24,201 nt of DNA from Baffinella frigidus. Taxonomy: Eukaryota; Cryptophyceae; Cryptomonadales; Baffinellaceae. Positions 1,709 to 23,633 of this stretch are shown here, piece after piece. The translations under genes and the position numbers were made by a program. The stretch's first letter is position 1. Each line of letters opens with the position of its first letter. The stretch covers positions 38,205-62,405 of the forward strand of contig MU646596.1 of assembly GCA_026770585.1 (NCBI GenBank). The letters are read 5' to 3'. Below the pieces are notes generated by a model, which did not search any database, had not been told where the DNA came from, and saw nothing but the letters and a program-made list of their open reading frames with translations.

Positions 1709-2079
1709 TAGCGTCCGCCAGACATTTCTGGAAGTACGGCTGGTTTGGGGGTAAGGGGTTAAGGGGTAAGGGTTTAGGGGTTAGAATGCGTTCGGGATAA
1801 GCAACCGCGCCCGGACTCACTAGCGTCCGCCAGGCACCACTGGAAGTACGGCTGCAAAGGTTTTTTCATTATTAAAAAAGGGGTTAGGGGGTGATGGGGT
1901 TAGGGGTTAGAGTGCGTCCGCGCCCCGAGACCGCGCCCGGACTCACTAGCGTCCGCCAGACATCGAAGGGTTTTGGTTGTAAGGTGTTAGGGGTTAAGGG
2001 TTGAGGTGTTAAATTGCTTTTGGGATCTGGGACCGCGCCCGGACTCACTAGCGTCCGCCAACCATTTCTGGAAGTACGG
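1709..2079 (-). CDS. Tandem array of a 31-nt exon (PYFQKCLADA), four copies
   Basis: Minus-strand copies lie at 2049-2079 (PYFQKWLADA), 1947-1963 (truncated), 1821-1851 (PYFQWCLADA) and 1709-1739 (PYFQKCLADA). All four keep the same strong donor, GCTA followed by GTGAGTCC. Three keep an acceptor (TTCGCAG, TTGCAG, AACCAG). The exon enters in phase 0 and leaves 1 nt, so it fits after the phase-0 block 3148-3243. Telomere-like GGGGTTAGGG blocks separate the copies. It is unclear which copy is spliced, or whether more than one is. Family not recognised. Confidence 0.55.
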
Positions 2080-2150
2080 CTGCGAAGGGTTTGAGGTTTG
2101 GGGTGTAGGGTGTAGGGTGTAGGGTGTAGGGTCTGGTTTTAGAGTTTGGG
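1745..2150. repeat. Telomere-like spacer blocks between exon copies
   Basis: Units such as GGGGTTAGGG, GGGTTTGG and TAGGGTG fill the gaps of the 1.7-2.1 kb exon array at about 1742-1792, 1880-1912, 1968-2015 and 2085-2150. Confidence 0.7.
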
Positions 2151-2264
2151 GTTATGTGCCTCGGGCACTGTACACAGTGTATCACGGTTTCCATAACCAG
2201 TGTGGTGTACCGTACTGTACGGGTCGGACGCAGTCTACCCCCTACAGTCCCTTACAGTCCCGTA

Positions 2265-2450
2265 CACAACACACCACACACCACACACCACACACCACGC
2301 CCTGCACCCCACACCCCACACCCCACGCCCTGCACCCGAACCCCTACACCCAAACCCCTACACCCAAACCCCTACACCCGAACCCCTACACCCGAAACCC
2401 TACACCCGAAACCCTACACCCAAACCCCCACACCCGAAACCCGAAACCCG
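2265..2450. repeat. C-rich tandem repeats (CACACCACACAC, CCCTACACCCAAACC)
   Basis: A CACAC-rich run followed by about ten CCCNTACACCC(A/G)AACC units, probably degenerate telomere-like sequence. All long open frames here are low-complexity translations of it. Confidence 0.8.
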
Positions 2451-2474
2451 GGAACGAAAGTATCTGCACTACGA

Positions 2475-2617
2475 GCCAGAACATTTCACCTAAGTCAACT
2501 CCCCCTGAAAGCCAGTGCCCTAAGTCAAATGCCTGCTCCCAGAGTATGCCCATCTAAACAAAATGGCAACTTACTGCTGCGGATCAGCTTTGTTGACTTA
2601 CGGTAAAATATCCTGGG
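2475..2617. mobile_element. MITE-like element H, copy 1
   Basis: About 143 bp with imperfect 25-bp inverted ends (GCCAGAACATTTCACCTAAG against CCAGGATATTTTACCGTAAG). It is highly similar along its length to 20331-20477, including the shared interior GAAAGCCAGTGCC and AAATGGCAACTTACTG. Confidence 0.8.
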
Positions 2618-2627
2618 TAGCGATGAC

Positions 2628-3060
2628 CTGCTGGTGCCAGGGCATCTACGCTTGCCCGAAGGGGCCCGGGTCGTTGGCTAAATCTTTCAGGCAACCACAA
2701 ATGGCTCCAAAGGTAGAATGACTCCAACTCATTATCCACAGGTAGAATGGCTCCAACTCACTCCACAACTTGAATGGCTCCAACTCATTATATCCTGAGA
2801 AAGCACCTGCTGGAACCATGGCATCCAAGCTTGCCCGAAGGGAGCCGGGTCGCCAAACCCCTACACTCTACCCCCTACAGTCCCTTACAATCCCGTACAT
2901 TCCCGTACTGTTCCGCACAGTCTCGTACAGTCCCGTACCCTACCCCCGAACCCCTACACCCGAAAGCCGGGCACGAACGCACCTGCTGGCGCCATGGCAT
3001 GCCCGAAGGGGCCCGGGTCGTTGGCTAAATCTTTCAAGCAACCAAGAATGGCTACAAAGG
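2628..3060 (-). pseudogene. Three partial copies of the 3148-3243 exon end
   Basis: Exon 3' ends next to GT lie at 2628, 2807 and 2983. The 2628 copy has an in-frame TAG where the main exon has TGG (GQA-stop-MPWHQQ). The 2983 copy has lost bases and shifts frame. The 2807 copy stays open (DPAPFGQAWMPWFQQ) with the same GTGCTTTC donor as the main exon. Runs of about 30-bp units containing GGCTCCAACTCATTATCC lie between copies, in the would-be introns. Confidence 0.6.
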
Positions 3061-3140
3061 TAGAACGGCTCCAACTCATTATCCAAAGGAAGAATGGCTC
3101 CAACTCGTTATCCGAAGGTAGAATGGCTCCAACTCTTGAG
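2695..3140. repeat. Short tandem units (GGTAGAATGGCTCCAACTC)
   Basis: Imperfect units of about 28-32 bp recur in two clusters (about 2695-2790 and 3045-3140), each just before an exon-end copy. They are part of the larger tandem unit. Confidence 0.7.
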
Positions 3141-3147
3141 AAAGCAC

Positions 3148-3243
3148 CTGCTGGCGCCAGGACATCCAAGCTTGCCCGAAGGGGCCCGGGTCCCCGCGCG
3201 TCCGATTCCGGTGCTGGTCCATCATCACGTCGGCCTTCGCAAC
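3148..3243 (-). CDS. Internal exon, 32 codons, unidentified product
   Basis: The minus strand has acceptor TTCTTTCGCAG with a pyrimidine-rich run, then an open block of exactly 96 nt, then donor CAG followed by GTGCTT. It is phase 0 at both ends. The peptide begins VAKADVMMDQHRNRTRGDPG and ends FGQAWMSWRQQ. It is the full-length member of a set whose 3' part is repeated three more times between 2628 and 3020. It joins in phase to the PYFQKCLADA exon downstream and the 4180-4281 exon upstream. No family recognised. Confidence 0.65.
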
Positions 3244-3269
3244 CTGCGAAAGAACACAGGTTCGACGAA

Positions 3270-3342
3270 ATCGTATCTCGAGGCAGTGAATTCACTGCAA
3301 AATCGGTGAATTCACGCCAAAACGAGGCCTGGTCAAATTGCC
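3270..3342. repeat. Dispersed repeat G, copy 1
   Basis: Matches the reverse complement of 22231-22305, sharing CTCGAGGCAGTGAATTCACT and the motif CCTGGTCAAAT. Both copies lie close to an F element, but on opposite sides of it. Confidence 0.65.
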
Positions 3343-3348
3343 CAGACG

Positions 3349-3874: not shown

Positions 3875-4179
3875 AATCCAGCGTTTCCAGGCGGCGTTCT
3901 AGTGCGAGAGCGGTCCTTCAAAATTAGGTGATCCGATGAGTTTCAATTGTACGACTCACTTTTGGGGGAAATGATTTTACTACACGCAAAAGTGAGTGCT
4001 CCGTGATGAATTTGGTTGATCACGTCCTGAAAAATGGTCCGTGCCAGGTGTGCATAGAAAATTCTGGAGGGTAAAATGTTATCTCATGTGAGTCTAAGAA
4101 GCACAATCTCAAAATGGAACCGTCATTTTTTTTTCGGTGTCGTTTTCAGAAAGCTGGTCAAAAACTGATGGTGCCGGAC

Positions 4180-4281
4180 CTCCCATGGCGGGATGAATCG
4201 CGCATCGATGCAGTCGGCGAATGGGGAGGGGTTGTAGGGGTAGTGTCCGTCGCCGTAGATGTACTCCCGATCCTTGCACAT
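4180..4281 (-). CDS. Internal exon, 34 codons, unidentified product
   Basis: The minus strand has acceptor GGCAATGCAG, a 102-nt block in phase 0 at both ends, and donor GAG followed by GTCCGG. The peptide starts MCKDREYIYGDGHYPYNPSP and ends CIDARFIPPWE. It is rich in Y, P, G and D, with no motif I recognise. Two further partial copies of its 5' half lie just upstream at 4302-4340 and 4393-4451, each after its own AG. Any of the three acceptors might be used. The copies differ mostly at a few bases (IYGDGHYPY, VYGDGHLHT), so they are fairly recent or constrained. Confidence 0.7.
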
Positions 4282-4301
4282 CTGCATTGCCAGGTGTGTA
4301 A

Positions 4302-4451
4302 GTGTCCGTCGCCGTAGACATACTCCCGATTCTTACACATCTGTTTCAGCTGGTCAAACGTTTCAGCTGGTCAAACGTTCATGGTCAAAAACGGGGAGGG
4401 GCTGTAGGGGTAGTGTCCGTCGCCGTAGATGTACTCCCGATCCTTGCACAT
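4302..4451 (-). pseudogene. Two partial copies of the 4180-4281 exon 5' half
   Basis: 4393-4451 follows GGCAATGCAG and reads MCKDREYIYGDGHYPYSPSP. 4302-4340 follows CTGAAACAG and reads MCKNREYVYGDGH before diverging. Neither reaches a donor like that of the main copy. Between them lie two TTTCAGCTGGTCAAACGTT units, also found at 9366-9400. Confidence 0.6.
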
Positions 4452-4492
4452 CTGCATTGCCAGGTCACAAGTGAGAATGACATTTTCAAGCC

Positions 4493-4579: not shown

Positions 4580-4647
4580 GATGATCTGGCCGTTATGTCC
4601 AGTCCCCGAGAATTTAATCTAAAAAACTTTCGGAATTAAATCGGGAC

Positions 4648-4665
4648 TTCTTCAAGCGACGGCAT
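4648..4665 (-). pseudogene. Copy of the MPSLEE exon end with donor
   Basis: The minus strand reads MPSLEE and then GTCCCGAT, identical in layout to the 3' end of the exon at 5734-5808. A similar copy, VPSLKE then GTCTCGAT, is at 5004-5021. The rest of the exon is absent in both. Confidence 0.55.
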
Positions 4666-4785
4666 CGGTACTTTTTATGCTACGTTAGGCTTTTATTTAT
4701 CGCAATTTAGGGTGAACGATGCTATCTTAGCAAGGGTTGTATGTTCACCCTGTATAGCGTGAAAATGCGTGAAAACCAAACATTC

Positions 4786-4946
4786 ATAGGCTAACGGCCT
4801 GAAAATGGGGTAGTTAGGCATGCGGCATTGCCTATGACCTCCTACCGTAGGCCGAGGGATCCTAGAACCAAAAAGTCGCGGCCTACGGTAGGAGGTCCTA
4901 GGCAATGCCGTAGGCCTAACTACCCCATTTTCAAGCCGTTACCCTA
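4786..4946. mobile_element. Long foldback element E, copy 1
   Basis: Almost the whole 160 bp is one inverted repeat: TAGGCTAACGGCCTG / GGGGTAGTTAGGC ... GCCTAACTACCCC / CCGTTACCCTA, with a loop near AACCAAAAAGTC. It carries the CTACCGTAGG palindrome. Copies are at 9737-9899 and 15379-15541. Such a molecule would form a very stable hairpin. Confidence 0.85.
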
Positions 4947-5003
4947 TTAACATAGCGTAAACGTGCAACTGGATCAGTGATCTCCCGAACTTAGAATCGA
5001 GAC

Positions 5004-5021
5004 TTCTTTGAGCGACGGTAC
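5004..5021 (-). pseudogene. Second copy of the PSLxE exon end
   Basis: Reads VPSLKE followed by GTCTCGAT on the minus strand. See 5734-5808. Confidence 0.5.
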
Positions 5022-5061
5022 AGGTGCACTTGCCACCCACTTTCCACCACCCTCCACCAAC

Positions 5062-5209
5062 CCACACGGTGGACTACGGACCTTTTAAAAAAAGTCAACT
5101 TGCCCAGAAATAAACAACTTAAGGATTTTGTGGTGTAAATTTGGTCACGTGACACCCCATAATCCGCCCCCAAATTCAGATCCGAAACCCTCGAAGCCGA
5201 CAGAATGGC
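5062..5209. mobile_element. MITE-like element D, copy 3
   Basis: Starts CCACACGGTGGACTACGGAC and aligns with the reverse complement of 11909-12043, including AAAGTCAACTT, AAATTTGGTCACGT and the end CCGAAACCCTCGAAGCC. It is flanked by copies of one sequence (CCACC(A/C)CCCTCCACC at 5042-5058 and 5221-5238), so it sits inside a duplicated exon end. Confidence 0.7.
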
Positions 5210-5220
5210 TTCCCACTCAC

Positions 5221-5270
5221 CTCCCACTACCCTCCACCGGGTCGTTTGCACCGTCCAGTCCAGCGTCCAT
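5221..5270 (-). CDS. Possible exon MDAGLDGANDPVEGSGR
   Basis: The minus strand has acceptor AAACCACAG, a 50-nt open block, then a strong donor (GAG followed by GTGAGTGGG). A donor ten bases earlier (GTAGTG) is also possible. A degraded copy of its 3' end lies beyond element D at about 5037-5058. Phase 0 in, 2 nt out, which does not fit the next confident exon, so a small exon may be missing or another donor used. Confidence 0.4.
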
Positions 5271-5433
5271 CTGTGGTTTTATCCCTATGGTATGCATGGG
5301 TTTTATGACACGATAGCAGCCCCCACCCATAACATGTCACAAAATGGCCCAAGTGTCTCGTCTTGTCCTTCCCCGGTCCCCCGACCCGACCTCGAAAACA
5401 TTCAAGCCAACCCGAAATCTACAATATCACCCC

Positions 5434-5569
5434 CACTTAGCAGCCACCGGGGTCTACACGGATGCAGTCCATCTAAACTATTGGTACTAGAATCTGATCC
5501 ATTTGCATTGGATTCTAACCGCAATTCCCCTGAGAGTTCGGGGGAAAATATCTTCGGTTGCTGCTAAGT
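5434..5569. mobile_element. MITE-like element A, copy 2
   Basis: About 136 bp, ends CACTTAGCAGCCACCG and CGGTTGCTGCTAAGT. The interior has ACAGTCCATCTAAA-type sequence, ATTCTAACCG and the TTCCCCTGAGAGTTCGGGGG palindrome. It directly abuts element B1, as does copy 3 with B2. Confidence 0.85.
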
Positions 5570-5714
5570 TCATCTCGAAAGATAACTGATTCAGTTCCCT
5601 AATTAGAATTCTCATGTAATTAGGAGGGATAATTGAATTTACTATTCCCTAACTAATTTCTCCTATCCAACTTGCTATTGAGAAGGAACTGGTCCAGTTA
5701 TCTTCCGAGATGAA
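5570..5714. mobile_element. MITE-like element B, copy 1
   Basis: Inverted ends TCATCTCGAAAGATAACTGA and AGTTATCTTCCGAGATGA. AT-rich interior with CCTAATTAG and CCCTAACTAATTTCTCCTAT. In the minus sense it lies just after the donor of the 5734-5808 exon, so it would be intronic. Confidence 0.85.
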
Positions 5715-5733
5715 AGTGGTTGAGGATCGGGAC

Positions 5734-5808
5734 CTCTTCGAGCGACGGCATAGGCGCGTAGAAGTCGTGTGTCCCGTCAATTTCAGCTTCTGACGGAGCC
5801 GGCCCACC
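5734..5808 (-). CDS. Internal exon, 25 codons, unidentified product
   Basis: The minus strand has acceptor GGCACACTGCAG, a 75-nt block in phase 0 at both ends, and donor GAAGAG followed by GTCCCG. The peptide starts GGPAPSEAEIDGTHDFYAPM and ends PSLEE. The first half is repeated at about 6045-6091 (GGPAQLEAEIDGTHD) and the last six codons at 4648 and 5004. Differences between the copies are partly synonymous. The upstream intron holds K1 and a CT microsatellite; the downstream intron begins with B1. Acidic, no known motif. Confidence 0.65.
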
Positions 5809-6632: not shown

Positions 6633-6776
6633 TCATCTCGGAAGATAACTGAATCAGTTCCTTTTCAATAGGAGCTTGCATAGGAGAAATTAGTTAGGGC
6701 ATAGTTAATTCAATTAGGCCTCCTAATCGAATGAAAACGCTACTTAGGGAACTGATTCAGTTATCTTTCGAGATGA
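6633..6776. mobile_element. MITE-like element B, copy 2 (inverted relative to B1)
   Basis: Ends TCATCTCGGAAGATAACTGA and AGTTATCTTTCGAGATGA. Its interior is the reverse complement of that of B1 and B3. Its right end continues into the 171-bp tandem repeat. Confidence 0.8.
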
Positions 6777-7165
6777 AAGTGGTGGGTGGGAGGGAAACGG
6801 ACTTGCGTGAGGGTACGGCGCCGCAAGATCTCCTAATTAGAGTTTTCATTCAATTAGGAGGCATAATTGAATTTACTATGCCCGAACTAATTTCTCCTAT
6901 TCAACCTCCTATTGAAAAGGAACTGATTCAGTTATCTTTCGAGATGAAAGTGGTGGGTGGGAGGGGGACGGACTTGCGTGAGGGTGCGGCGCCGCAAGAT
7001 CTCCTAATTAGAGTTTTCATTCAATTAGGAGGCATAATTGAATTTACTATGCCCTAACTAATTTCTCCTATTCAACCTCCTATTAAAAAGGAACTGATTC
7101 AGTTATCTTTCGAGATGAAAGTGGTGGGTGGGAGGGGGACGGACTTGCGTGAGGGTGCGACGCCG
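6749..7165. repeat. 171-bp tandem repeat, about 2.4 copies
   Basis: GAACTGATTCAGTTATCTTT starts at 6749, 6920 and 7091, exactly 171 bp apart, with near-identical units. Each unit joins a B-element interior to the 3' end of the 7145-7198 exon and its donor. The plus-strand 108-codon frame here is open only because 171 is a multiple of three. Confidence 0.9.
6803..7004 (-). pseudogene. Two extra copies of the ILRRRTLTQ exon end
   Basis: Minus-strand ends at 6803 and 6974 read ILRRRTLTQ followed by GTCCGT, as in the complete exon ending at 7145. Upstream of each is AT-rich B-element sequence (CTAATTAGGAG) rather than an acceptor. Confidence 0.65.
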
Positions 7166-7198
7166 CAGGATTTCGGGGATCTCCTCCATGTTCTCCTC
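7145..7198 (-). CDS. Internal exon EENMEEIPEILRRRTLTQ
   Basis: The minus strand has acceptor ACAAATGACAG, 54 nt, donor CAA followed by GTCCGT, phase 0 at both ends. Charged and probably helical. Its last nine codons, donor and the first part of the intron, including a B element, are repeated twice more downstream in the 171-bp tandem array. In the copies ending at 6803, 6974 and 7145 the encoded ILRRRTLTQ is unchanged. Product unknown. Confidence 0.65.
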
Positions 7199-7281: not shown

Positions 7282-7518
7282 ACCAAAAGTTGACTCATGC
7301 CTCGTGATGAGTTGACTTTTGCAATTGACCACCCTCAGGTCCAGCGTAGGCGATAGACGCAGGGGTGGTTGGCTCAACGAATTTTCATGAGAGCAGAAAG
7401 ATGCTCTAGAGAGTCACCTACCCAGAGTCATATATCACCGAGTATACAACGTGTACGAAGAAAAAACACGAGGTTGATCGGTTCGCAGAAAAACGTGAGG
7501 TAAATCGGATCGCCACTA
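7282..7518. other. Stretch without a confident gene
   Basis: Holds an imperfect inverted pair (TTGACCACCCTCAGG ... CGCAGGGGTGGTTGGCTCAA, 7325-7376) and three GAGGTNNATCGG(A/T)TCGC-type units around 7470-7515, the last repeated after O2 at 7725-7740. No exon seen. Confidence 0.5.
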
Positions 7519-7711
7519 TCCACACGAGAACGATAGAAGGGCCTGTCTAAAACTGCTTTCTTTTACAAGTGGACATTTGTGTAGTAACGTTCGTGAGGTT
7601 GGTCACGTAACGCTGCAAAATTAGCACAGTCACGAGGTTGGTTACATTATCCTGGTGCGAATATTCACAACCCCGCATGTAAATAGGATCCTCCAGCATT
7701 CTCGTGTGGAT
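7519..7711. mobile_element. MITE-like element O, copy 2
   Basis: Imperfect inverted ends CCACACGAGAACGATAG and CCAGCATTCTCGTGTGG, itself inside a TATCC/GGATA pair. It contains GTAGTAACGTTCGTGAGG, related to the M core. Confidence 0.75.
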
Positions 7712-7773
7712 AGAAAAACAGGGGTTAGACGGATCGCCACGAATAGCTCTTGAATGTGAGATGCCCTTGCGTG

Positions 7774-7935
7774 CCACACAGCGGGCTACAAAGGGATTTT
7801 CTACTCAAATTTAAGCCATTTCCCGTAACCTTATCCGTGGGAACCCCTCCTATGTCCCTACGGATTGCCTACCGTAGGGTTGTAGGTCTTATCGCTCAAG
7901 GGGTATTCAAAATCCCTTCGAAGTCCGCTGTGTGG
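7774..7935. mobile_element. MITE-like element C, copy 2
   Basis: Ends CCACACAGCGGGCTACAAAG and CTTCGAAGTCCGCTGTGTGG, same length as C1. Confidence 0.9.
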
Positions 7936-8025
7936 ACTCTCTCCCTGTCTGCGTTTGAAACGCAGGGAAGAGGGGGGGTTGCGTGTGGGGGGGTTGAGAG
8001 GACTCTCTTTCTAGCTCTGCCTGAC

Positions 8026-8166
8026 TCAATCTGGGCCCCTCATCAAATGATCCCGCTGCTCTTTGTACTGGTGCGTTTGTACGGAGTCCTGATCGAAAGG
8101 CGTGTCTCGAGGACCGCCTCGGAAATGACGTAAAATGGGCCCGCCTCGGTAGAGCGGTTTCATCAT
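8026..8166 (-). CDS. Exon-like block, up to 46 codons then TGA
   Basis: The minus strand has acceptor CCGTGGCCAACAG, then an open block that begins MMKPLYRGGPILRHFRGGPR and continues DTPFDQDSVQTHQYKEQRDH to a TGA at 8026-8028. A donor inside the block (TCC followed by GTACAA, after 8083) keeps phase 0 and would join to 7145-7198. Without it this would be a terminal exon. Basic, with two RGGP repeats. Not recognised. Confidence 0.5.
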   Translation of the reverse strand: MMKPLYRGGPILRHFRGGPRDTPFDQDSVQTHQYKEQRDHLMRGPD

Positions 8167-9598: not shown

Positions 9599-9928
9599 AG
9601 GGCCTGAACCTTTTAGGGTGAGTGCGGGAGAAATGGAGCTGCAGCGCCAGCGCCGGTTGTGATGTCAGCTCCCGGAGTCATCAGTGCTAAACGCAGAGGA
9701 GCTGGCGCTGGCGCTCCATTTCTCCCGCACTCTAATAGGGTAACGTCCTGAAAGCCGGGTAGTTCGGCCTACGGTATTGCCTACGGTAGGCCGTAAGGCT
9801 CCTAGGGACCTAATGTTTCGTAGGACCCCCCCTTGGCCCCTACGGCCTACCGTAGGTAGACCGTAGGCTTAACTACCCGAGTTTCAGGACGTTAGCCTAC
9901 GAACTCACCCTAAAGAGTTCAGGCCCTC
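9599..9928. mobile_element. Nested foldback V holding W (9621-9731) and E2 (9737-9899)
   Basis: Outer ends GGGCCTGAACCTTTTAGGG and CCCTAAAGAGTTCAGGCCC. Inside, W has arms AGTGCGGGAGAAATGGAG ... CTCCATTTCTCCCGCACT, and E2 has arms TAGGGTAACGTCCTG ... CAGGACGTTAGCCTA. The left outer end is also duplicated in direct orientation at 9559-9581. Confidence 0.75.
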
Positions 9929-13191: not shown

Positions 13192-13515
13192 GTTTCGGGT
13201 TTCAAATTTCGGGTTTCGGGGTTTCGGGTTTCGGGTTTCGGGCTTCGGGTTTCGGTTTACGCGTTTCGGTTTTCGGGTTTCGGGTTTTGGGTTTCGGGTT
13301 TCGGGTTTCGGGTTTCAGATGTAGGGTGTAGGGTTTCAGATGTAGGGTGTAGGGTGCAGGGCAGCTGGCGCACCTCCCAAATGTGGTGCTGCTGGGTGTC
13401 GAACTCTGTCGAGGAGCCATGAAGGGTGTAGGGTGTAGGGTGTAGGGTGTAGGGCGCAGGGTGTAGAATGCAGGGTGTAGGGTGCAGGGTGCAGGGTTCA
13501 GGGTGTATGGTGTAC
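13192..13515. repeat. Telomere-like arrays (GGGTTTC, TAGGGTG)
   Basis: About 16 GGGTTTC(G) units at 13192-13318 and TAGGGTG/CAGGGTG units at 13320-13515, interrupted by the exon-end copy at 13374-13412. Confidence 0.85.
13374..13412 (-). pseudogene. Copy of the EFDTQQHHIWE exon end
   Basis: Reads STEFDTQQHHIWE followed by GTGCGC. It lacks the 5' part and acceptor of 13516-13600. Confidence 0.55.
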
Positions 13516-13600
13516 CTCCCAGATGTGGTGCTGCTGGGTGTCGTACTCTGTCGGGTAGCCCAGCTCTATCCGCGCATCCACCGGCACCACCTCCTCCAGC
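13516..13600 (-). CDS. Internal exon, 28 codons, unidentified product
   Basis: The minus strand has acceptor CCCCGGGCCAG, 85 nt (1 nt plus 28 codons), donor GAG followed by GTACAC. The first base completes the CG left by 14017-14067 to give an arginine. The peptide begins LEEVVPVDARIELGYPTEYD and ends TQQHHIWE. Its 5' part is repeated at 13780-13839 and its 3' part at 13374-13412, one copy on each side. The start RLEEVVPVDA resembles RLEEELGVDA of the exon at 19497-19541. Confidence 0.7.
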
Positions 13601-13645
13601 CTGGCCCGGGGTTTTATCTCAAAACCCGAAACCCGTGGTAATTTA

Positions 13646-13757
13646 AACCCGATAAGTCGTTTTCTTAAGTCAATTCCTCTACAAATTCGTCAACCTATTC
13701 TTTTCTCTACGCATAAGTCGACAAATTTATAGGGGGGTTGACTTACGAAAACGACTT
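13646..13757. mobile_element. MITE-like element Y in the intron
   Basis: Ends AAGTCGTTTTCTTAAGTCAA and TTGACTTACGAAAACGACTT, about 112 bp. One copy seen. Confidence 0.8.
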
Positions 13758-13779
13758 CTAAAAAGGCTATCCTGAGATA

Positions 13780-13839
13780 GTGTCGAACTCCGTCGGGCCC
13801 AGCTCGATCCGCGCATCCACCGGCACCACCTCCTCCAGC
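13780..13839 (-). pseudogene. Copy of the LEEVVPVDARIELG exon start
   Basis: After acceptor CCAAAACCAG it reads LEEVVPVDARIELG, then PTEFDTISG and a stop. Three bases (the Y codon) are missing relative to the full exon and there is no donor. Confidence 0.6.
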
Positions 13840-14010
13840 CTGGTTTTGGGGTTTGGGGTTTGTGGTTTGGGGTTTCTGGCGAGTCTTCCTCAAGTCTGGT
13901 TTGGGGTTTGGGGTTTAGGGTTTAGGGTTTAGGGTTCAGAATTTAGGGTTTAGGGTTTAGGGTTTGGTATTTAGAGTTTGGTGTTTGGTGTTTGGTGTTT
14001 GGGGTTTGGG
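13840..14010. repeat. Telomere-like array (GGGTTTA / GGGTTTG)
   Basis: More than 15 seven-base units, some exact TTTAGGG. Broken at about 13876-13898 by a short non-repeat segment. Confidence 0.9.
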
Positions 14011-14016
14011 GTTTAC

Positions 14017-14067
14017 CGCAGCCTCGTATGGTTGAAGGGGTCCGGCCGTTTCTCAGGAGCGAGCCGC
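14017..14067 (-). CDS. Internal exon RLAPEKRPDPFNHTRL
   Basis: The minus strand has acceptor CCCAAAACGCGCAG directly after telomere-like repeat, 51 nt, donor CG followed by GTAAAC. One base in, two bases out. The outgoing CG joins G of 13516-13600 to make arginine. The incoming G can join the GG left by the possible donor at 15194 to make glycine. These phase matches argue that it is a real exon. Confidence 0.6.
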
Positions 14068-14074
14068 CTGCGCG

Positions 14075-15183: not shown

Positions 15184-15300
15184 TCAGAAAACATCGAAAT
15201 CGGCGTACCCGTTTTCGATGCGGAAGCGGAAGCGCGTGTAGTTGCGCGCCTCCCTCTCGAGCAGTAGGTCCAGGTTCTTGTTGCTATACGCCTTAGTTTC
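15184..15300 (-). CDS. Exon ETKAYSNKNLDLLLEREARN..., terminal or internal
   Basis: The minus strand has acceptor CTCTCCCCACAG, 38 codons, then TGA at 15184-15186. It begins ETKAYSNKNLDLLLEREARN and continues YTRFRFRIENGYADFDVF. A donor GG followed by GTACGC after RIEN would leave 2 nt that fit the next exon (14017-14067), so it may not be terminal. The first third is repeated at 15553-15582 and 15873-15923. The flank 15309-15377, upstream in the minus sense, is repeated at 15790-15861. It is the longest of the copies. Family not recognised. Confidence 0.65.
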   Translation of the reverse strand, partial: ETKAYSNKNLDLLLEREARNYTRFRFRIENGYADFDVF

Positions 15301-15378
15301 CTGTGGGGAGAGACGTTGAACAAGAAATACACTGAGCTGGGACTGCAGAACCCCCCAAACCTGTAGCCCGTACATTTC

Positions 15379-15541
15379 AATAGGGACGGCCTGAAAATGG
15401 GGTAGTTAGGCCTACGGCATTGCCTAGGACCTCCTACCGTATGCCGAGACTTTTTGGTCCTAGGATCCCTCGGCCTACGGTAGGAGGTCCTAGGCAATGC
15501 CGTATGCCTAACTACCCCAATTTCAGGCCGTTAGCCTATGA
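15379..15541. mobile_element. Long foldback element E, copy 3
   Basis: Arms TAGGGACGGCCTGAAAATGG and CCAATTTCAGGCCGTTAGCCTA with GGTAGTTAGGCCTACGGCAT inside. Almost wholly palindromic, loop near GACTTTTTGGTC. Confidence 0.85.
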
Positions 15542-15552
15542 ATTTGGGAGTT

Positions 15553-15582
15553 GAGGTTCTTGTTGCCGCACGCCTTGGTTTC
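15553..15582 (-). pseudogene. Copy of the ETKAYGNKNL exon start
   Basis: After GGCCTCACAG it reads ETKACGNKNLN and then runs into E3-flanking sequence. The intron side is element K2. Confidence 0.6.
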
Positions 15583-15590
15583 CTGTGAGG

Positions 15591-15791
15591 CCACGCCAGG
15601 TCATAAGTTCCTTTTTCACACACACTCGTTCGCGCTCAAGGTGTTTAGATGGCTTATCGTGGTACAGATTTTTAAAACTCCGGCGGCAAAGAGCTCCAAT
15701 TTCCACCACTTTTGGCGTGTTTCCCGGGTGGAAACAACTCGACTCGAACATCGTGTAGTAAAATGAAAATTGGACTTCTGACCTGGCGTGG
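15591..15791. mobile_element. MITE-like element K, copy 2
   Basis: Ends CCACGCCAGGTCATAAGT and ACTTCTGACCTGGCGTGG, 201 bp. It splits a duplicated acceptor region: the sequence on its far side (15790-15861) matches that upstream of the intact exon at 15309-15377. Confidence 0.85.
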
Positions 15792-15872
15792 AGAGAAATT
15801 GAATGAGAAATACACTAAGCTGGGACTGCAGACCCCCCCCAACCTGTAGCCCGTATATTTGGGGGTTCGGGT

Positions 15873-15923
15873 TTAGCACTCGAGCTTGAGGTTCAGGCAC
15901 TGGTTGCCATACGCCTTTGTCTC
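15873..15923 (-). CDS. Third copy of the exon start, ETKAYGNQCLNLKLEC then stop
   Basis: The minus strand has acceptor AAACCCCACAG, 16 codons and TAA. The frame is also open back through telomere-like sequence to the block at 16022-16115. It could be an alternative last exon or a dead copy. Confidence 0.4.
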   Translation of the reverse strand, partial: ETKAYGNQCLNLKLEC

Positions 15924-15927
15924 CTGT

Positions 15928-16015
15928 GGGGTTTCGGGGTTTGGGTTTTGGGTGGAGGGTTTCGGGTTTTGGGGTTTGGGTGGAGGGTGGAGGGTTGCAG
16001 GTTGAGGGTCGAGGG
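15928..16015. repeat. Telomere-like array (GGGTTTTGGG, GGGTGGAGGG)
   Basis: Degenerate seven- to ten-base G-rich units between two coding-like blocks. Confidence 0.8.
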
Positions 16016-16746: not shown

Positions 16747-16958
16747 GTTGTGTACCTGGACAGAGAGATCTCATGTAGAAAAACTTAGAAGTTATAAACC
16801 TGGTTCCAATGAAAATTACTACACGTTTTTAACATCACTATTAAGGATTGTTCTGTGCAGTAAATTTCATTGAACCAAGTTTATCAATTATAAGAGTTTC
16901 CACATGAGATCTTCAGACTCTCTGAGAGGCCTTGACCTCCAGACGACGCACCATCATT
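16747..16958 (-). pseudogene. Exon copy split by element X2 (16766-16911)
   Basis: The minus strand reads RMMVRRLEVKASQRV then a stop (16913-16958). The X2 foldback follows (ends AGATCTCATGTAGAAAAACT and AGAGTTTCCACATGAGATCT, M-type core). After it comes CTCTGTCCAG with GTACAC, matching the end of the LEVEAE exon family. So X2 lies inside an exon copy, with GATCTC at both borders. Confidence 0.55.
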
Positions 16959-17058
16959 CGTGGGAGCTTGTTAGTACCTTAGGAGCGTGTCAGCTTTTTA
17001 CTAGGGAGCTTTAGCGTTTTGACTTGGGAGCGTTTCAAACGTAGGCGCCTTTCTGTAC

Positions 17059-17441
17059 CTTGACAGGGAGCTCCTCGGCCTCGACCTCGAGAGATCTTCA
17101 GACTCTCTCGCGCGTTTGGGGTTCAGGGATTAGAGATTAGGGTTCCGAGGGGATGGTCCGCATCATGGCGGTTGTACCTCGACGGGCAGCTCCTCAGCCT
17201 CTCTCTCGGCCTCGATTCCCAGGCGCCGCATCATCGCCTGCATCCGGTTGCCTACGGATTGCCTACGGTAGGAGCTCCCCTCCCTACGACTTTTAAAAGA
17301 TTTTTAAAAAAACGTCGTAGGAGGAGGGGGGGGGTTCCTACCATAGGCTAAGGGGTCCGCTGAGGGGTCCGATTCTACCTCCACCTCCTACGGTGGTACC
17401 TCGACAGGGCGCTCGGCCTCGACTTCCAGCCTCCACACCAT
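17059..17441 (-). pseudogene. Three partial copies of the RRLEVEAE exon end
   Basis: 17059-17091 reads LEVEAEELPVK then GTACAG. 17178-17249 reads NRMQAMMRRLGIEAEREAEE then LPVE and GTACAA. 17400-17441 reads MVWRLEVEAERPVE then GTACC. The 17178 copy is cut at its 5' side by a foldback at 17261-17348 that carries CCTACGGTAGG. Confidence 0.6.
17261..17348. mobile_element. Small foldback with CCTACGGTAGG
   Basis: Arms GCCTACGGTAGGAGCTCCCC/TCCCTACGAC and GTCGTAGGAGGAGGGG/TTCCTACCATAGGC around an AT-rich loop. Related in motif to elements C, E and F. Confidence 0.7.
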
Positions 17442-17594: not shown

Positions 17595-17675
17595 CTCGAC
17601 AGGGCGCTCGTCCGCCTCTTTCTCGGCCTCGACTTCCAGACGCCGCATCATCGACTGCATCCGATTCGACGCTGC
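17595..17675 (-). CDS. Internal exon, 27 codons, coiled-coil-like
   Basis: The minus strand has acceptor TCTGCTGCAG, 81 nt, donor GAG followed by GTACCG, phase 0 at both ends. The peptide begins AASNRMQSMMRRLEVEAEKE and ends ADERPVE. The pattern of L, M, V and charged residues suggests a helix or coiled coil. It is the only complete member of a set with at least five partial 3'-end copies (16.75-18.45 kb) and about five 5'-end copies (17.8-18.3 kb). Joins in phase to 19008-19070 upstream. Confidence 0.7.
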
Positions 17676-17699
17676 CTGCAGCAGATATTCAGGGGTTTA

Positions 17700-18300
17700 A
17701 GGTGAAATGAACCCTACAGTATGAACCCTACAGTATGTAGGGTTTATTTAGGGTTAGATCAGCGGTTATTTGGGGTCGAGGGTTAAATGAACCCTACAGT
17801 ATGTAGGGTTTGTTTGGGGTTAAATGAACCCTGCAGTCTCATCGCCTGCATCCGGTTCGACGCTGCCTGCCGCGGTTATCCAGGGTTTAGGTTATTTAGG
17901 GTTTAGGGTCCCAAATGAACCCGACAGTATGTAGGGTCTGTTTGGGGTTCATGGCCTGCATCCGGTTCGACGCTGCCTGCAGCAGATATTCAGGGTTTAG
18001 GGTTAATTCAGCGTTTTTTTAGGGTTTAGGGTTAGATTAACCCTGCAGTATGTAGGGTATATTTAGACAGCGCTGCCACCAGCGGTTATTCAGGGTTTAG
18101 GGTCAGATAAACTCTACAGTATGTAGGGTTTATTGGGGGTTTAATGAACCCTGCAGTCTCATCGACTGCATCCGGTTCAGCGCTTCCTGCAGCGGTCATT
18201 CAGGGTTCAGGGTTAGATGAACCCTACAGTATGTAGGGTTCATTTGGGGTTCATCGACTGCATCCGGTTTAGCGCTGCCTGCAGTGGTTGTTCAGGGTTC
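17700..18300. repeat. Exon-start/telomere-like tandem array, about 100-bp units
   Basis: Units combine an acceptor (CTGCAG) with the first 20-30 nt of the NRMQSM exon (seen near 17845-17872, 17950-17983, 18160-18187, 18252-18284) and a hairpin AACCCTACAGTATGTAGGGTT (about eight times) within GGGTTTAGGGTT repeats. Extra units occur at 18590-18675. A reader gene model would see many competing acceptors. Confidence 0.75.
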
Positions 18301-18407
18301 CACTTAGCAGCAACCGAAGATATTTCCCCCCGGATTCTCGGGGGAAACGCGGTTGGAATTCCAGGGCAATGGATAAGATTCTAGTGCAAATCATTTAGAT
18401 GGACTGT
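18301..18407. mobile_element. Element A, copy 6, truncated at the exon fragment
   Basis: Reverse-oriented A from CACTTAGCAGCAACCGAAG to TTTAGATGGACTGT. The last 30 bases of the family, including the second terminus, are missing, and exon-like sequence starts at once. Confidence 0.8.
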
Positions 18408-18449
18408 CGCTCGGCCTCGACTTCCAGACGCCGCATCATCGTCTGCATC
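18408..18449 (-). pseudogene. Exon copy MQTMMRRLEVEAER, cut by A6
   Basis: Acceptor CCGTGTGCAG, then one base and MQTMMRRLEVEAER, where A6 begins. No donor. Confidence 0.55.
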
Positions 18450-18469
18450 CTGCACACGGGAAAGCCGTA

Positions 18470-18903: not shown

Positions 18904-18905
18904 AG

Positions 18906-18955
18906 GTAGCTCTGGATTTTGTCGGGGCCAGAACCGGGATTCTCCGCCGAAGCAA
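18906..18955 (-). pseudogene. Copy of the ASAENPGSGPDKIQ exon with donor deleted
   Basis: Reads ASAENPGSGPDKIQ then AGCTACC, where the intact copy has GTGAGCTACC: exactly the three bases GTG are missing, which removes the splice donor. Confidence 0.6.
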
Positions 18956-19007
18956 AACCTAAACCCTCAACCCTAATTTAGACCCACAAACGTCTCGGGT
19001 AGCTCAC

Positions 19008-19070
19008 CTGGATTTTGTCAGGGCCACAGCTGGGATTCTCCGCCGAAGCCAGGAAGAACCGTAGCATGTC
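19008..19070 (-). CDS. Internal exon, 21 codons, unidentified product
   Basis: The minus strand has acceptor CCCTAAACCCAG, where the telomere-like array itself ends in AG. Then 63 nt and donor CAG followed by GTGAGC (consensus-like), phase 0 at both ends. The peptide begins DMLRFFLASAENPSCGPDKI and ends Q. Its 3' part is repeated at 18906-18955. One of the clearest exons of the window. Confidence 0.75.
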
Positions 19071-19146
19071 CTGGGTTTAGGGTTTAGGGTTTAGGTTTTA
19101 GGGTTTAGGGTTTAGGGTTTAGGGTTTAGGGTTTAGGGTTTAGGGT
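19071..19146. repeat. Near-perfect TTTAGGG array
   Basis: About ten consecutive TTTAGGG units with one TTTTAGGG variant, the most regular telomere-type block here. Degenerate GGGTT(G/T) units continue to about 19275. Confidence 0.95.
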
Positions 19147-19309
19147 TGCGCGGGAGATGCGGGTTGAGGGTTTGCGGGGTGGTTGGGGTTCGGGATTTGG
19201 GGTTGGTGGTTTGGGGGTTGGGGGTTGGGGGTTGGGGTTTGAGGCTTGGGGTTTTGGGTTCAGGGATTAGGGATTAGGGTTCCGAGTGGATGGTCCGGAG
19301 GGCGTACAC

Positions 19310-19345
19310 CTCACAGCCACACGGATGGAAGTAGAAGTTGATCAC
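19310..19345 (-). CDS. Possible exon VINFYFHPCGCE
   Basis: Ends CGCE followed by GTGTAC, like 19497-19541. The 5' side has only a weak AG (GTGAAAG). Probably a rearranged copy of the same exon end. Confidence 0.35.
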
Positions 19346-19496
19346 CTTTCACACGGGTGATAGTCCGATGCCTAAATCATCGTTGGCAAATGCCGGAAGC
19401 TGTTTTCGACCAGAAGAATGCGGTTCGGTAAAAGTGTTATATAAGCTACGTCCCAGGGCAATAAAGAAGAAGAAGGGGTTCGGAGGGCGTAGACAC

Positions 19497-19541
19497 CTCA
19501 CAGCCACACGCATCAACCCCCAACTCCTCCTCCAGCCGTTC
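19497..19541 (-). CDS. Internal exon ERLEEELGVDACGCE
   Basis: The minus strand has acceptor CGACTGTTCAG, 45 nt, donor GAG followed by GTGTCT, phase 0 at both ends. The last four codons and donor recur at 19310. RLEE..GVDA resembles the start of the 13516-13600 exon. Fits in phase between 21221-21295 and 19008-19070. Confidence 0.55.
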
Positions 19542-19873: not shown

Positions 19874-20330
19874 AAAAGCCTCTTCTCTCGAACGGTTGAA
19901 GGTATTGATTAATTGCCGTCGACAACCAAAACAAAACTACACACGCCCTTTACTTGTTACTAGTATCAGCCAATTGTGTATTATTTATCATTCTCGTCGA
20001 CCAAAAGCAATAAATCAATCCTTTTGCGGAGATTAACCTGCAGCGCACGCACACTCTTGCGGTCCACCTAATAAATTCAATTTCGCGAGGTGTTCATCTA
20101 AACGATTCCTGGTACAAAAACAGGTATTTTGAAACCCCTAAAAGTACGAAATGGCTCCAGCGCCGCAAGCCAACTCTGAAACAAAATCTATTCAGGACCG
20201 CATAGAGAGTGTGTAGGCGCATCCGCAGCGCATGCGTGACCTAAAGCCTAAACCTAAAACCTTGACCCTAAACCCTCAACGGCGTTGGAGCCATTTCAGC
20301 GTTGGAGCCATTTCGCACACTCCACTCTGA
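19874..20330. other. Intron-like sequence with one exon-end copy
   Basis: Contains an M-like core (about 19923-20010), the exon-end copy VDRKSVRALQ then GTTAAT (minus, 20038-20068), and GGCTCCA/TGGAGCC motifs at 20150-20310. No other gene seen. Confidence 0.5.
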
Positions 20331-20477
20331 GCCAGAACGTTTCACCTGAGTCAACTCCCCCTGAAAGCCAGTGCCTCAAGTCAAATGCTTGCTCCCAGAG
20401 CAGGTCCATCTAAACGAAATGGCAACTTACTGTCGAGGATCAGCTTTGTTGACTTAAGGTAAAATATCCTGGCTGGC
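20331..20477. mobile_element. MITE-like element H, copy 2
   Basis: Ends GCCAGAACGTTTCACCTGAG and CTTAAGGTAAAATATCCTGGCTGGC. Closely similar to H1 at 2475-2617. Confidence 0.85.
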
Positions 20478-20479
20478 GG

Positions 20480-20623
20480 TGCACTCGCGCGGTCCACCAC
20501 AGCCTTCATCCCCGCAAAGACATTGATTAATTGCCTCTGGCAAAAAATAATACTACAAAAACGCTTCACTATCACTAGAATGGTTGATCAATAATTGTAC
20601 GGAGAGGAATCTGCAGCGTTTCC
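20480..20623. other. Remnants of the VVDSASVRALQ exon and M core
   Basis: The minus strand reads MKAVVDRASA at 20480-20512, next to H2, and ETLQ at 20603-20620. An M-like core (ACTATCACTAGAATGGTTGA) lies between. Both fragments lack proper donors. Confidence 0.45.
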
Positions 20624-20727
20624 GAGGCGGGCCCGTTTCTTAAGGCTCATAGACTTTTGTATCACTCAACTCCAGGCTCAAGGGCCTCATTTAGGACCTA
20701 TATCGAGAGTAATAAAGAAGAAGTAAT
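20624..20727. repeat. Dispersed repeat T, copy 2
   Basis: Inverted copy of 3577-3685. Confidence 0.75.
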
Positions 20728-20739
20728 GAGTAGAGTTGC

Positions 20740-21220
20740 TTTTGGCAACAAAAGCTGCTACACAAAACTCTTTACTATGACTCTGATCCAATTGTGTAGT
20801 AATTATCGTTATTTTTTAGTAACGGTCGTTACGGAGGTGCACCTGCAGTGCGCGCACACTTGCGGGGTCCAGAAAAGTACTACACAAACGTTTTACTATC
20901 ACTAGTATGATTGATCGCTTCACTATCACTTATATTATTGATGACTATCACTAGTATGATTGATTACTATCACTAGTATGACTGACCCTAACCTGCAGCG
21001 CGCGCACGCTCGCAAAAGTACCTACCCAGATTCTTTACAATTGCTAGCATGATCCAATTGTGTAGTAATTTTCGTTGCTTTTACAGAGGTGCACCTGCAG
21101 CGCGCGCACGCTCGCGGAGTCCACCACGGCCAGCCGCAGTTGCGTTTGGCAACGAAAGTTACTACACAAACTCTTTACAATGACTAGTATGGCCCAATCG
21201 TGTAGTAATTTTCGTTGCAC
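20740..21220. repeat. Tandem array: exon end VDSASVRALQ plus M-type MITE
   Basis: Exon-end copies with donors (minus) end at 20843 (DPASVRALQ, GTGCAC), 20993 (ASVRALQ, GTTAGG) and 21095 (RLAVVDSASVRALQ, GTGCAC), besides the full exon at 21221. M elements follow each one in the minus sense: about 20745-20830, 20876-20990, 21010-21080 and 21149-21218. The last has ends GCAACGAAAGTTACTACACA and GTGTAGTAATTTTCGTTGC. Confidence 0.7.
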
Positions 21221-21295
21221 CTGCAGCGCGCGCACGCTCGCGGAGTCCACCACGGCCAGCCGCTGCCTGAACCGCGTCGCGCCGTCCATGTCCAC
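21221..21295 (-). CDS. Internal exon, 25 codons, unidentified product
   Basis: The minus strand has acceptor CGGAACGCAG, 75 nt, donor CAG followed by GTGCAA, phase 0 at both ends. The peptide begins VDMDGATRFRQRLAVVDSAS and ends VRALQ. The downstream intron starts directly with an M element. The 3' half is repeated at least four times between 20038 and 21136, and the 5' half at 22436-22475. Basic and amphipathic; no family recognised. Confidence 0.7.
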
Positions 21296-22230: not shown

Positions 22231-22305
22231 GGCATTTGACCAGGTATGAATTTGGAGTGAATTCATTGATTTGACAGTGAATTCACTGCCTCGAGACGTA
22301 TACCC
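22231..22305. repeat. Dispersed repeat G, copy 2
   Basis: Inverted copy of 3270-3342 (AGTGAATTCACTGCCTCGAG). Confidence 0.65.
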
Positions 22306-22317
22306 ACTAGGTAGCCA

Positions 22318-22435
22318 GCCGCCCTATGATGCATTTGGTAAGGCCGTATAAGCAAACCCTACGGCCGTAAAGCTTTCCCCTTCCCTCCCCCTTATATCCC
22401 AAGTCTTCGCGTTGCTTTTATCTCCCTCTAGGTAG
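22318..22435. repeat. Repeat U copy 2 (empty site for F)
   Basis: Continuous ...CTACGGCCGTAAAGCTTTCC... to TATCTCCCTCTA. Flanked on both sides by T(A/C)GGTAGCCAGC, the end of the QLA/RLA exon fragment, so it lies in a duplicated exon end. Confidence 0.7.
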
Positions 22436-22475
22436 CCAGCTGCTGTCTGAAGCGCGCTGCGCCGTCCATATCTAC
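22436..22475 (-). pseudogene. Copy of the VDMDGATRFRQ exon start
   Basis: Acceptor TCCTTGTAG, then VDMDGAARFRQQLA and immediately TACCTAG (stop). A shorter fragment, GRLA then TACCTAG, is at 22304-22320. Confidence 0.6.
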
Positions 22476-22771
22476 CTACAAGGAGGTACAGAAGGGAGGG
22501 GCAAAGATTTATTGTAAAGCAACTAGTGCAGCACGATAGCACACGGTTGCAGAAGGTCACAACCAGAAAAAGCGACCACGAACTAGTGCAAGGCCTAGTT
22601 CACTACCCAGTATTACTATTTCACCGCCTAGTTTTCGAACAAGTTCACGAGAGTTTTCGCGAGGCCCTGGAAATAGATGTTTCTGTCGCTTTGGCCACGT
22701 AACACCCCAGAAATAGATGTTTCTGTCGCTTTGGAAATAGATGTTTCTGTCGCTCAGGGCCTGACACAGTC

Positions 22772-22887
22772 CATTCGAGAACGCTGGAGCTCCCTACCCG
22801 ATGATTTGAACAAAAGTTAATACACCAATGCTCACGTGTGAAGAAACCCCGGGTTTCAATTGGGTGCTCCAGCATTCTCGAGTGGTA
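22772..22887. mobile_element. MITE-like element O, copy 3
   Basis: Ends CCATTCGAGAACGCTGGAGC and GCTCCAGCATTCTCGAGTGG; interior TTAATACACCAATGCTCACG. Preceded (22665-22755) by three AAATAGATGTTTCTGTCGCT units. Confidence 0.8.
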
Positions 22888-22960
22888 GTTGACCTACACC
22901 CCCAAACACGCCAGACCCCCAGACCCAAACGCTACACCCTACAACCTACACCCTCATGAC

Positions 22961-23012
22961 CTGCATGTGCATCCCGAGCATTCGCCGCAGCACTTGCTCG
23001 CGCGTCAAGTCT
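22961..23012 (-). CDS. Internal exon DLTREQVLRRMLGMHMQ
   Basis: The minus strand has acceptor AAACCCTGGCAG out of a telomere-like block, 52 nt (1 nt plus 17 codons), donor CAG followed by GTCATG. Ends in phase 0, as needed for VDMDGATRF. The incoming A completes AAA if the previous exon ends at 23363. A copy of its start (DLTREQLLS) with acceptor CCCTGACAG is at 23170-23191. Confidence 0.65.
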
Positions 23013-23020
23013 CTGCCAGG

Positions 23021-23360
23021 GTTTAGGGTTTAGGATTCAGGCATTAGGGTTTAGGATTTAGGGTTTCGGATGTGGGGTTTAGGGTTTCGGGTTTAGGGTT
23101 TAGGTTTTAGGGTTTCAGGATCCGGGTTTCGGGTTTGGGGTTTAAGTTTTTAGGGTTTAGGGTTGATAGCAGTTGCTCGCGCGTCAAGTCCCTGTCAGGG
23201 TTTAGGGTTCAGGGTTTAGGTCTTAGGATTTCGGGTTTGGGGTTTGGGGTTTGGGGTTTGGGGTTTCGGGTTCAGGGTTTAGGGTTTCGGGTTTATGGTT
23301 TAGGGTTCAGGGTTCAGGGTTTCGGGTTTAGGGTGTATGGTTTAGGGTTTAGGGTTGCAT
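23021..23360. repeat. Telomere-like arrays (GGGTTTA, GGGTTTC, GGGTTTG)
   Basis: About 35 seven-base units in two blocks (23021-23165, 23198-23357), split by the DLTREQ copy at 23170-23191. In the minus sense they are CCCTAAA-type and run into both acceptors. Confidence 0.9.
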
Positions 23361-23362
23361 GC

Positions 23363-23431
23363 TTGAACTCGTCGGCCTCGATCATGTCCTGCAGCTCGTC
23401 TTTCCGGGACGCGATCACCTCCTCCACAAAC
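23363..23431 (-). CDS. Internal exon FVEEVIASRKDELQDMIEAD...
   Basis: The minus strand has acceptor CCTCTTCGCAG, 1 nt plus 22 codons (FVEEVIASRKDELQDMIEAD, EF) plus 2 nt. There is no GT at the 3' end; a GC donor (AA followed by GCATGC) would give the right phase for 22961-23012. The incoming G completes CGG with the exon ending at 24135. Helical and acidic. A decayed copy is at 23593-23633. Confidence 0.6.
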
Positions 23432-23523
23432 CTGCGAAGAGGGATTGGTAAAGAGATTGGAATCATAGATTGGGAGATTGGTAACGATCATAGATTGAGA
23501 GATTGGTAATTTATTGCCAAACA

Positions 23524-23633
23524 ACCAGCGTCACCGCCGCACATGCCTTACGCATTGTGCTACTTCCTGTACCCCGTGTCGGCCGCTCTTACGAGCTTTT
23601 TCCGGATGGATTCTATCTCAACCTCCTACAAAC
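23524..23633 (-). pseudogene. Decayed copy of the FVEEV exon and second STMRKACAA segment
   Basis: 23593-23633: acceptor GTTCGCAG, then TTTGTAGGAGGTTGAGATAG, which matches the FVEEVIASR start but is frameshifted with stops, and a GTAAGAG donor. 23524-23563 is the partner of 11762-11801. Confidence 0.5.

Follow-up and report, generated by a model that had tools for sequence, protein, structure and literature searches.

What is known of how introns arise and lengthen mostly comes from a few cases in each genome. Several processes that duplicate or insert DNA at or near splice sites have been described. One model, which PMC4974935 credits to Rogers (1989), has introns arise by tandem genomic duplication; that source describes an example in the potato RdRp gene, a duplication that crosses an exon-intron boundary. 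In vertebrates, the passages of PMC2671141 on repair-mediated duplication describe short, local copies, some of them of splice sites, with filler at the breakpoints. In mammals, telomeric repeats are inserted at double-strand breaks with occasional duplication of the target (PMC2246262), a table of that paper giving telomeric insertions with duplication as 6/130 in rodents and 4/25 in primates. The introners of Amoebophrya have inverted repeats, with direct repeats of 3-5 nt at the splice sites (PMC7789003, where Aureococcus is also cited), and Rogers and Bendich (2025) attribute repeats near intron borders to past insertions and the repair of breaks (PMC11782384). The present analysis concerns 24,201 nucleotides of Baffinella frigidus (assembly GCA_026770585.1, contig MU646596.1, positions 38,205 to 62,405; hereafter the window), whose minus strand carries a gene with very short exons, in a genome of 382,457,362 bases and 1,364 contigs. 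A first-pass annotation had reported that, at almost every exon of this gene, short pieces spanning one splice site are repeated in tandem. This observation is confirmed and reaches beyond the window, and we propose that it is probably best read as the trace of insertions that duplicated their target and were rescued by splicing.

Directional copies of exon edges in six genes

Six genes were compared, namely the window gene, SF3B3, three of the HSP70 type and one HSP110. The peptides of SF3B3 were spotted among the duplicated stretches of an arbitrarily chosen 10-kb locus (L026), from which the gene runs on into L030, and its identity was confirmed against PDB chains (best E 7.4e-34). Since its own copies drew attention to it, this gene is an ascertained case, and the HSP loci were added. 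These four loci come from a hidden Markov model search with the HSP70 family, in which they appeared as split matches on four of the contigs listed, and were not chosen for duplications: L029 is a cytosolic-type HSP70 ending in IEEVD, L031 and L033 are of the HSP70 type, and L032 is the HSP110. The same family gave two intronless full-length matches of equal score on opposite strands (G000:C709:130108-131931 and 132798-134621), an inverted pair that perhaps belongs to an organelle or to another organism's contig. For the five genes outside the window, exons were located with tblastn, human protein sequences serving as queries, and those in the 3' half of the window gene are supported by alignment with a distant homologue, the metagenome protein P0001 (E 1.5e-8 in the homology search). 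The counts of copies and of their sides refer to 56 exons, several boundaries of which were set by eye.

At least one local copy of an exon edge was found at 28 of the 56 exons: at 4 of the 6 homology-supported exons of the window gene, 14/18 in SF3B3, and 10/32 in the four HSP loci (2/18 in L029, 2/4 in L031, 5/7 in L032 and 1/3 in L033). All 63 copies are direct, and the same threshold gave 0 inverted ones. Pieces made of acceptor and exon start lie upstream of their exon in 26/27 cases and pieces made of exon end and donor lie downstream in 28/28, which places 54/55 partial copies on the expected side, in addition to 3 internal and 5 whole-exon copies; the HSP loci alone give 21/21. When 8 window exons known from the reading frame only are added, the respective counts are 34/35 and 39/40. 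Such a rule follows from a tandem or target duplication that crosses the junction, and is not expected of templated copying. The exon part of the copies measures 19-91 bp and identity ranges from 76 to 100% over the six genes. Members of the same array do not count as independent events, so that P values computed for the geometry should not be read literally. The copies thus differ by 0-24% from the exon, so that they are no simple assembly echoes, an artefact having been one of the two refutations that the first-pass annotation had in view. Two further observations concern these genes: edge copies are rare in L029 and very common in SF3B3, a contrast to which the level of expression or the demand on splicing might contribute; and SF3B3 introns hold, between exon-edge copies, minisatellite-like units of TAGTGCTGACTAA (L030:2310-2700 and 7489-8032) and of CACACTCGGCTGCTT (L030:3848-4217).

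The spacing of the copies was taken from pairs at least 94% identical and at least 24 bp long within 700 bp, some being non-neighbouring members of an array. Among these 57 pairs, 3 abut or overlap, 0 are separated by 1-5 bp, 2 by 6-30 bp, and 52 by more than 30 bp. Inserts between nearest copies measure 44-280 bp in 43/47 cases and are telomere-like, consist of dispersed repeats, or were seen locally only. A nucleosome-like periodicity of the spacing was considered and dropped, the distribution being broad by eye.

Local duplication as such is a property of this genome. It was present at 11 of 14 loci, where between 11 and 48% of the eligible bases were covered, and absent from three 3-kb loci; one first-order Markov shuffle of each locus gave 0 pairs, against 75 in the window, where 22% of eligible positions are spanned, intron interiors included. 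Since introns are also full of local duplications, the idea that junctions alone are duplicated was rejected, though junctions are over-represented. The preference claimed by the first-pass annotation is supported overall: a mapped exon is part of 16/34 families of at least 94% identity, where the extent of the exons predicts 3.6, and the figures are 30/67 against 7.3 at 85% and 34/73 against 9.1 at 75%. The exon map used for this count differs somewhat from the 48-exon map used below and adds L033; in it an HSP110 exon (6936-6988) was added by eye and later supported by homology, and three SF3B3 exons, also added by eye, are based on reading. Under a stricter null, the rigid shift of the 48-exon map over five loci, 24/48 exons are touched against 15.3 (P 0.0008), with P from 0.03 to 0.73 at single loci; at L031 the covered fraction of exon bases (0.17) is less than the coverage of introns by intron-only duplications (0.23). 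As a separate observation, GT stands right behind the acceptor in 10/23 mapped exon starts and AG at 16/26 ends (a few boundaries being off by a base or more), an AG|GT context that is that of the proto-splice-site idea.

Origin of the copies

We consider that splice-rescued, target-duplicating insertion is probably the best reading of these copies. The observed parts of the model are the direct-only orientation, the side rule, the inserts between copies and the presence of the pattern in six genes. New DNA, namely telomere-like repeats, miniature inverted-repeat transposable elements (MITEs) or other filler, would enter a gene at a break with offset strands, and fill-in of these strands would leave a direct duplicate of ~25-90 bp flanking the captured insert. 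Where the duplicate straddled an exon edge, the copy beside the intact exon would bear the splice site, and the spliceosome would remove the insert together with the spare piece of exon, making the insertion neutral. An insertion in coding sequence, which as a rule would disrupt the exon, would thus survive where the duplicate includes a splice site, so that the insert is spliced away; further rounds could recur at the same edge. Some arrays instead grow by whole-unit tandem duplication. We infer the break and fill-in chemistry, the use of the nearest copy with skipping of the spare ones, and the neutrality of the outcome. Spare copies retain the splice dinucleotide in 32/36 and 24/28 cases, against 29.9 and 23.0 expected from identity; selection for splice sites in them was rejected, retention being about as expected, and the result speaks neither for nor against the proposed model. 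Among the mechanisms named by the first-pass annotation, staggered-break insertion with target duplication is best supported, by the geometry, and slippage or whole-unit tandem duplication applies to a subset such as the array labelled ILRRRTLTQ (arrays are named here by the peptide of the duplicated edge).

Several results nevertheless weigh against the splice-rescue model. Copies occur at only 2/18 exons of the L029 HSP70 gene; the shared intronic stretch exceeds 35 nt in 26/71 partial copies; the ILRRRTLTQ array is a whole-unit duplication; and in the MCKD array the outer copy matches at 74/76 positions and the inner at 39/43, to which a single simple target duplication does not fit. In nine copies of the palindromic MITE found at 4772-4956, 6 fetched and 3 in the window, no long flanking duplicate was seen by eye; transposition of the MITE itself is therefore not the source of the long duplicates, and their interpretation as its signature was rejected. 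The excess at exon edges (16/34 families against 3.6) is the part that the model leaves unexplained, as survivorship alone predicts none over introns; longer recognisability of exon copies could, on an estimate made by reasoning, explain a factor below two. Finally, the length of intron included in partial copies has two modes, one long and one short, and among copies with 2-35 intronic nt, 31/40 have no more than 11, against 14.4 if evenly placed. It is from the excess and the short overhangs that breakage anchored at splice sites would draw its support. In this reading the cut in one strand would fall at the splice site or no more than ~10 nt from it, and the cut in the opposite strand ~40 nt into the exon; exon edges would then be true targets and not survivors only. 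The shift test is consistent with it, as are the overhangs of no more than 11 nt in 10/13 copies at least 95% identical (against 6.4, P 0.017) and the occurrence of AGGT or ACCT in 17/32 families at six loci not chosen for genes (against 9.9 expected); taken together, these results suggest, short of proof, that one end of the event is set by the sequence of the splice site itself. However, exon copies stay recognisable longer, one copy being under selection, a faster turnover of intron flanks shortens overhangs, and the exon maps of five genes depend on human protein queries; moreover, we know of no enzyme or process that cuts DNA at a splice site in this way. We therefore hold anchored breakage to be unlikely, and advance only tentatively the broader proposition that in this lineage exon edges are targets of breakage, at which new intron material would be captured and then concealed by splicing, so that introns would grow over the edges of exons with splice-silent telomeric DNA as one building material.

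Ordinary tandem duplication, whether by slippage or by unequal exchange, in which MITEs and telomere-like repeats either arrived between the copies afterwards or rode in the unit, would also give a direct duplicate across the junction with the extra copy on the intron side, as found in 54/55 cases, and would accommodate the copies that share more than 35 nt of intron. It accounts well for ILRRRTLTQ, in which both the edge (45/46) and the MITE part (114/116) are near-identical, so that the whole unit was duplicated. Young pairs should, however, often stand head to tail, whereas 3/57 abut and 0/57 are 1-5 bp apart, 52/57 being separated by more than 30 bp. In the VRALQ array, the donor-edge copies at 21263-21216 and 21137-21090 are identical over 48/48 bp and successive MITE-like inserts match at 51/62 aligned positions; inserts less alike than their flanking copies imply that copy and MITE were not duplicated as a whole unit, and as a general explanation tandem duplication appears improbable to us. 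Templated filler synthesis, in which repair of the synthesis-dependent strand annealing or polymerase-theta type copies nearby exon pieces into breaks, would explain why the copies stay close to their source and alternate with patches of other sequence, and is documented in vertebrates, splice sites included, in the relevant passages of PMC2671141. We would expect it to give inverted copies and copies on both sides, whereas 0/56 exons have an inverted copy and 54/55 partial copies obey the side rule, which makes it very improbable. The same low credence is given to introner-type transposon insertion, to exons duplicated for alternative splicing and to assembly artefact. MITE-like inserts with inverted repeats are abundant and 5/63 copies are whole exons, but 55/63 carry a single exon edge, and the duplicates are long and variable (19-91 bp of exon) around inserts of several unrelated kinds, where an introner would duplicate only a short target and the intron would consist of a single family of elements; the spread of identity over six genes is not expected of an artefact. 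Splice-rescued insertion remains the reading that we prefer.

Arrays and inserted DNA in the window

The minus strand was searched against itself by BLAST, with telomere-like and simple repeats masked, and the anatomy of each array was then printed. Every array named by the first-pass annotation lies on this strand. Three copies of ILRRRTLTQ were recovered as had been stated (171-bp units, 97% alike), as were four of QQ-GTGCTT, by self-BLAST and anatomy together, two each of HHIWE, PDKIQ and DLTREQ, three each of ETKAY and MCKDREY, and five of NRMQSM with one further partial copy. VRALQ, put at four to seven, has five clear copies and weak remnants. The EAERPVE array stands, although with four copies bearing a donor in place of the five or six counted; PSLEE x3 and YVWR x2 are indeed repeats, for whose exon status no support was found; and the FVEEV pair, of only ~14 bp, fell below the recovery threshold. 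Four arrays come in addition: RLEEV x2 (13843/13604), VDMDG x2 (22477/21297), CGCE x2 (19513/19326) and PYFQKW x4 (2082-1696). The spacers had been given as MITE or telomere-like blocks; both occur, and other sequence as well.

Read in the sense of the gene, the DLTREQ array (22962..23202, minus strand, as for all features below) has an acceptor-edge copy at 23197-23168 and a presumed working exon at 23012-22962, between which the insert 23165-23024 is 74% telomere-like. At 22435..22477 lies an upstream copy (84%) of the VDMDG exon start with its acceptor AG, followed by the presumed working exon VDMDGATRFRQRLAVVDSASVRALQ at 21221..21295, with donor CAG|GTGCA, which is recognised by reading frame and splice signals and has an acceptor-edge copy upstream and donor-edge copies downstream. 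The MITE-like insert between the first two VRALQ donor-edge copies (21138..21215) was also seen at other sampled loci; from the second copy on, the donor edges lie at 21137-21090, 21013-20991, 20871-20838 and 20068-20036 (20036..21137), with MITE-like and other inserts between them. The CGCE donor edge occurs twice (19513-19477 and 19326-19292, in 19292..19513), and its copy is on the unexpected side if the working exon is 19344-19305. In the PDKIQ array (18905..19071), exon 19071-19008 is followed by a 44-bp insert (18997-18954) and by a downstream donor-edge copy (18953-18905) that has lost its GT. The presumed working exon 17675-17595 is bordered on both sides: upstream by the NRMQSM acceptor-edge array (17595..18450), whose copies are separated by small palindromic elements, and downstream by the EAERPVE donor-edge copies 17441-17391, 17249-17169 and 17092-17050 (16928..17441), the last of which is followed at 16955-16928 by a degenerate repeat confined to the exon body ahead of the donor edge.

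Arrays whose working exon is supported by alignment with P0001 are ETKAY, with acceptor-edge copies at 15928-15879 and 15590-15550 upstream of the working exon 15300-15219 (15219..15928); RLEEV...HHIWE, with an acceptor-edge copy at 13843-13780, the working exon at 13600-13516 and a donor-edge copy at 13418-13366 (13366..13843); and MCKDREY, with acceptor-edge copies at 4465-4390 and 4343-4301 and a working exon from 4286 (4170..4465). The insert 13779-13605 at RLEEV holds a palindromic element, and at the HHIWE edge a 53-bp duplicate (47 identical) flanks an 89-bp insert (13507-13419) that is 90% telomere-like. The ILRRRTLTQ array (6748..7196) consists of exon 7196-7145 and tandem units of donor edge and truncated MITE. 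The WRQQ exon (~3245-3148) is read from its frame only and has three donor-edge copies downstream (2626..3245), and the PYFQKWLADAS acceptor edge occurs four times (1600..2092), separated by inserts that are in part telomere-like; its final copy, which starts at 1739, leads into the long frame. The PSLEE repeats (5757-5723, 5027-4993 and 4668-4640, in 4640..5757) show no acceptor by eye, and the part of P0001 that runs from LTQ to YGDGHYP has nothing that clearly corresponds to them.

A second homologue search with alignment added only one further homologue of the window gene, P0002, and comparison of the gene with Pfam and PDB gave no match. A whole-genome search for the Rpb2_6 family returned 0 candidates, probably because the exons are too short for the first look of the search. 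The core of the dinoflagellate spliced leader, with one mismatch allowed, had 0 matches, and thus no sign of a core dinoflagellate was seen.

The telomere-like content of inserts is 52-91% in some and 0% in many. In the sense of the genes, exact telomere heptamers at the six gene loci are strongly biased, with 215 CCCTAAA against 14 TTTAGGG. As CCCTAAA has neither AG nor GT and TTTAGGG brings an AG with each unit, this bias fits the keeping of splice-silent inserts. Window introns with telomere-like repeats, whose C-rich strand is almost always the sense strand, are found for example at 13191-14289, 19073-19260 and 23018-23356, and several exons of the L029 HSP70 gene adjoin telomere-like sequence. 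The palindromic MITE, with core TAGTTAGGC...GCCTAACTA, is present at 4772-4956, 9725-9898 and 15373-15546 and is very abundant genome-wide, dominating the matches listed in a search that had 10,312 first-look candidates, 40 of which were scored.

Relation to known systems

The significance of the pattern lies in that half of the conserved exons examined bear directional traces of insertions apparently made harmless by splicing. The absorption of insertions by coding sequence, a possible preferential breakage of junctions, the competition of duplicated splice sites and the entry of telomere-like DNA into introns mostly in one orientation thereby become addressable. There is also a warning for annotation, since homology searches in such genomes will pick up exon pieces that are not exons. 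The first-pass annotation knew of no described process that targets junctions in this manner. As regards the ingredients this goes too far, all of them, namely junction-crossing tandem duplication, repair-mediated duplication and telomeric insertion at breaks, being described; as regards their combination at such a scale, a literature search over titles and abstracts that left most subscription journals outside its reach listed no account of a genome in which exon edges are duplicated time and again around inserts.

In plants, work by Vaughn and Bennetzen of 2014 and by Schiml et al. of 2016 reportedly has paired nicks leading to tandem duplications with filler. The likeness lies in filler-bearing direct duplicates some tens of bp long, of which only the product is visible here; that work is not known to report that splice junctions are preferred or that one edge is hit in several rounds. 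The tandem genomic duplication model, in the form in which it is cited, shares with our loci a duplication across the boundary, part of which is removed by splicing; here, in contrast, most duplicates flank inserts, enlarge an existing intron instead of creating one, recur at one edge and are found in all six genes. The mammalian insertions, as their source presents them, are alike in the capture of telomere-like DNA at a break, sometimes with target duplication, but here long duplicates are frequent, stand at exon edges and often surround inserts that are not telomere-like. As far as the account of the Amoebophrya introners goes, these are similar in that the intron material carries inverted repeats and its splice sites lie in direct repeats, and differ in that the latter are 3-5 nt long, against duplicates of ~25-90 bp around unrelated inserts. 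The repeats discussed by Rogers and Bendich pair the two ends of one intron over 4-30 bp in the passages concerned, whereas in B. frigidus one edge is repeated beside itself. Compared with vertebrate repair-mediated duplication, as outlined in the corresponding passages, the copies described here are direct only and keep strictly to one side, as would suit duplication of the target but not copying from a template.

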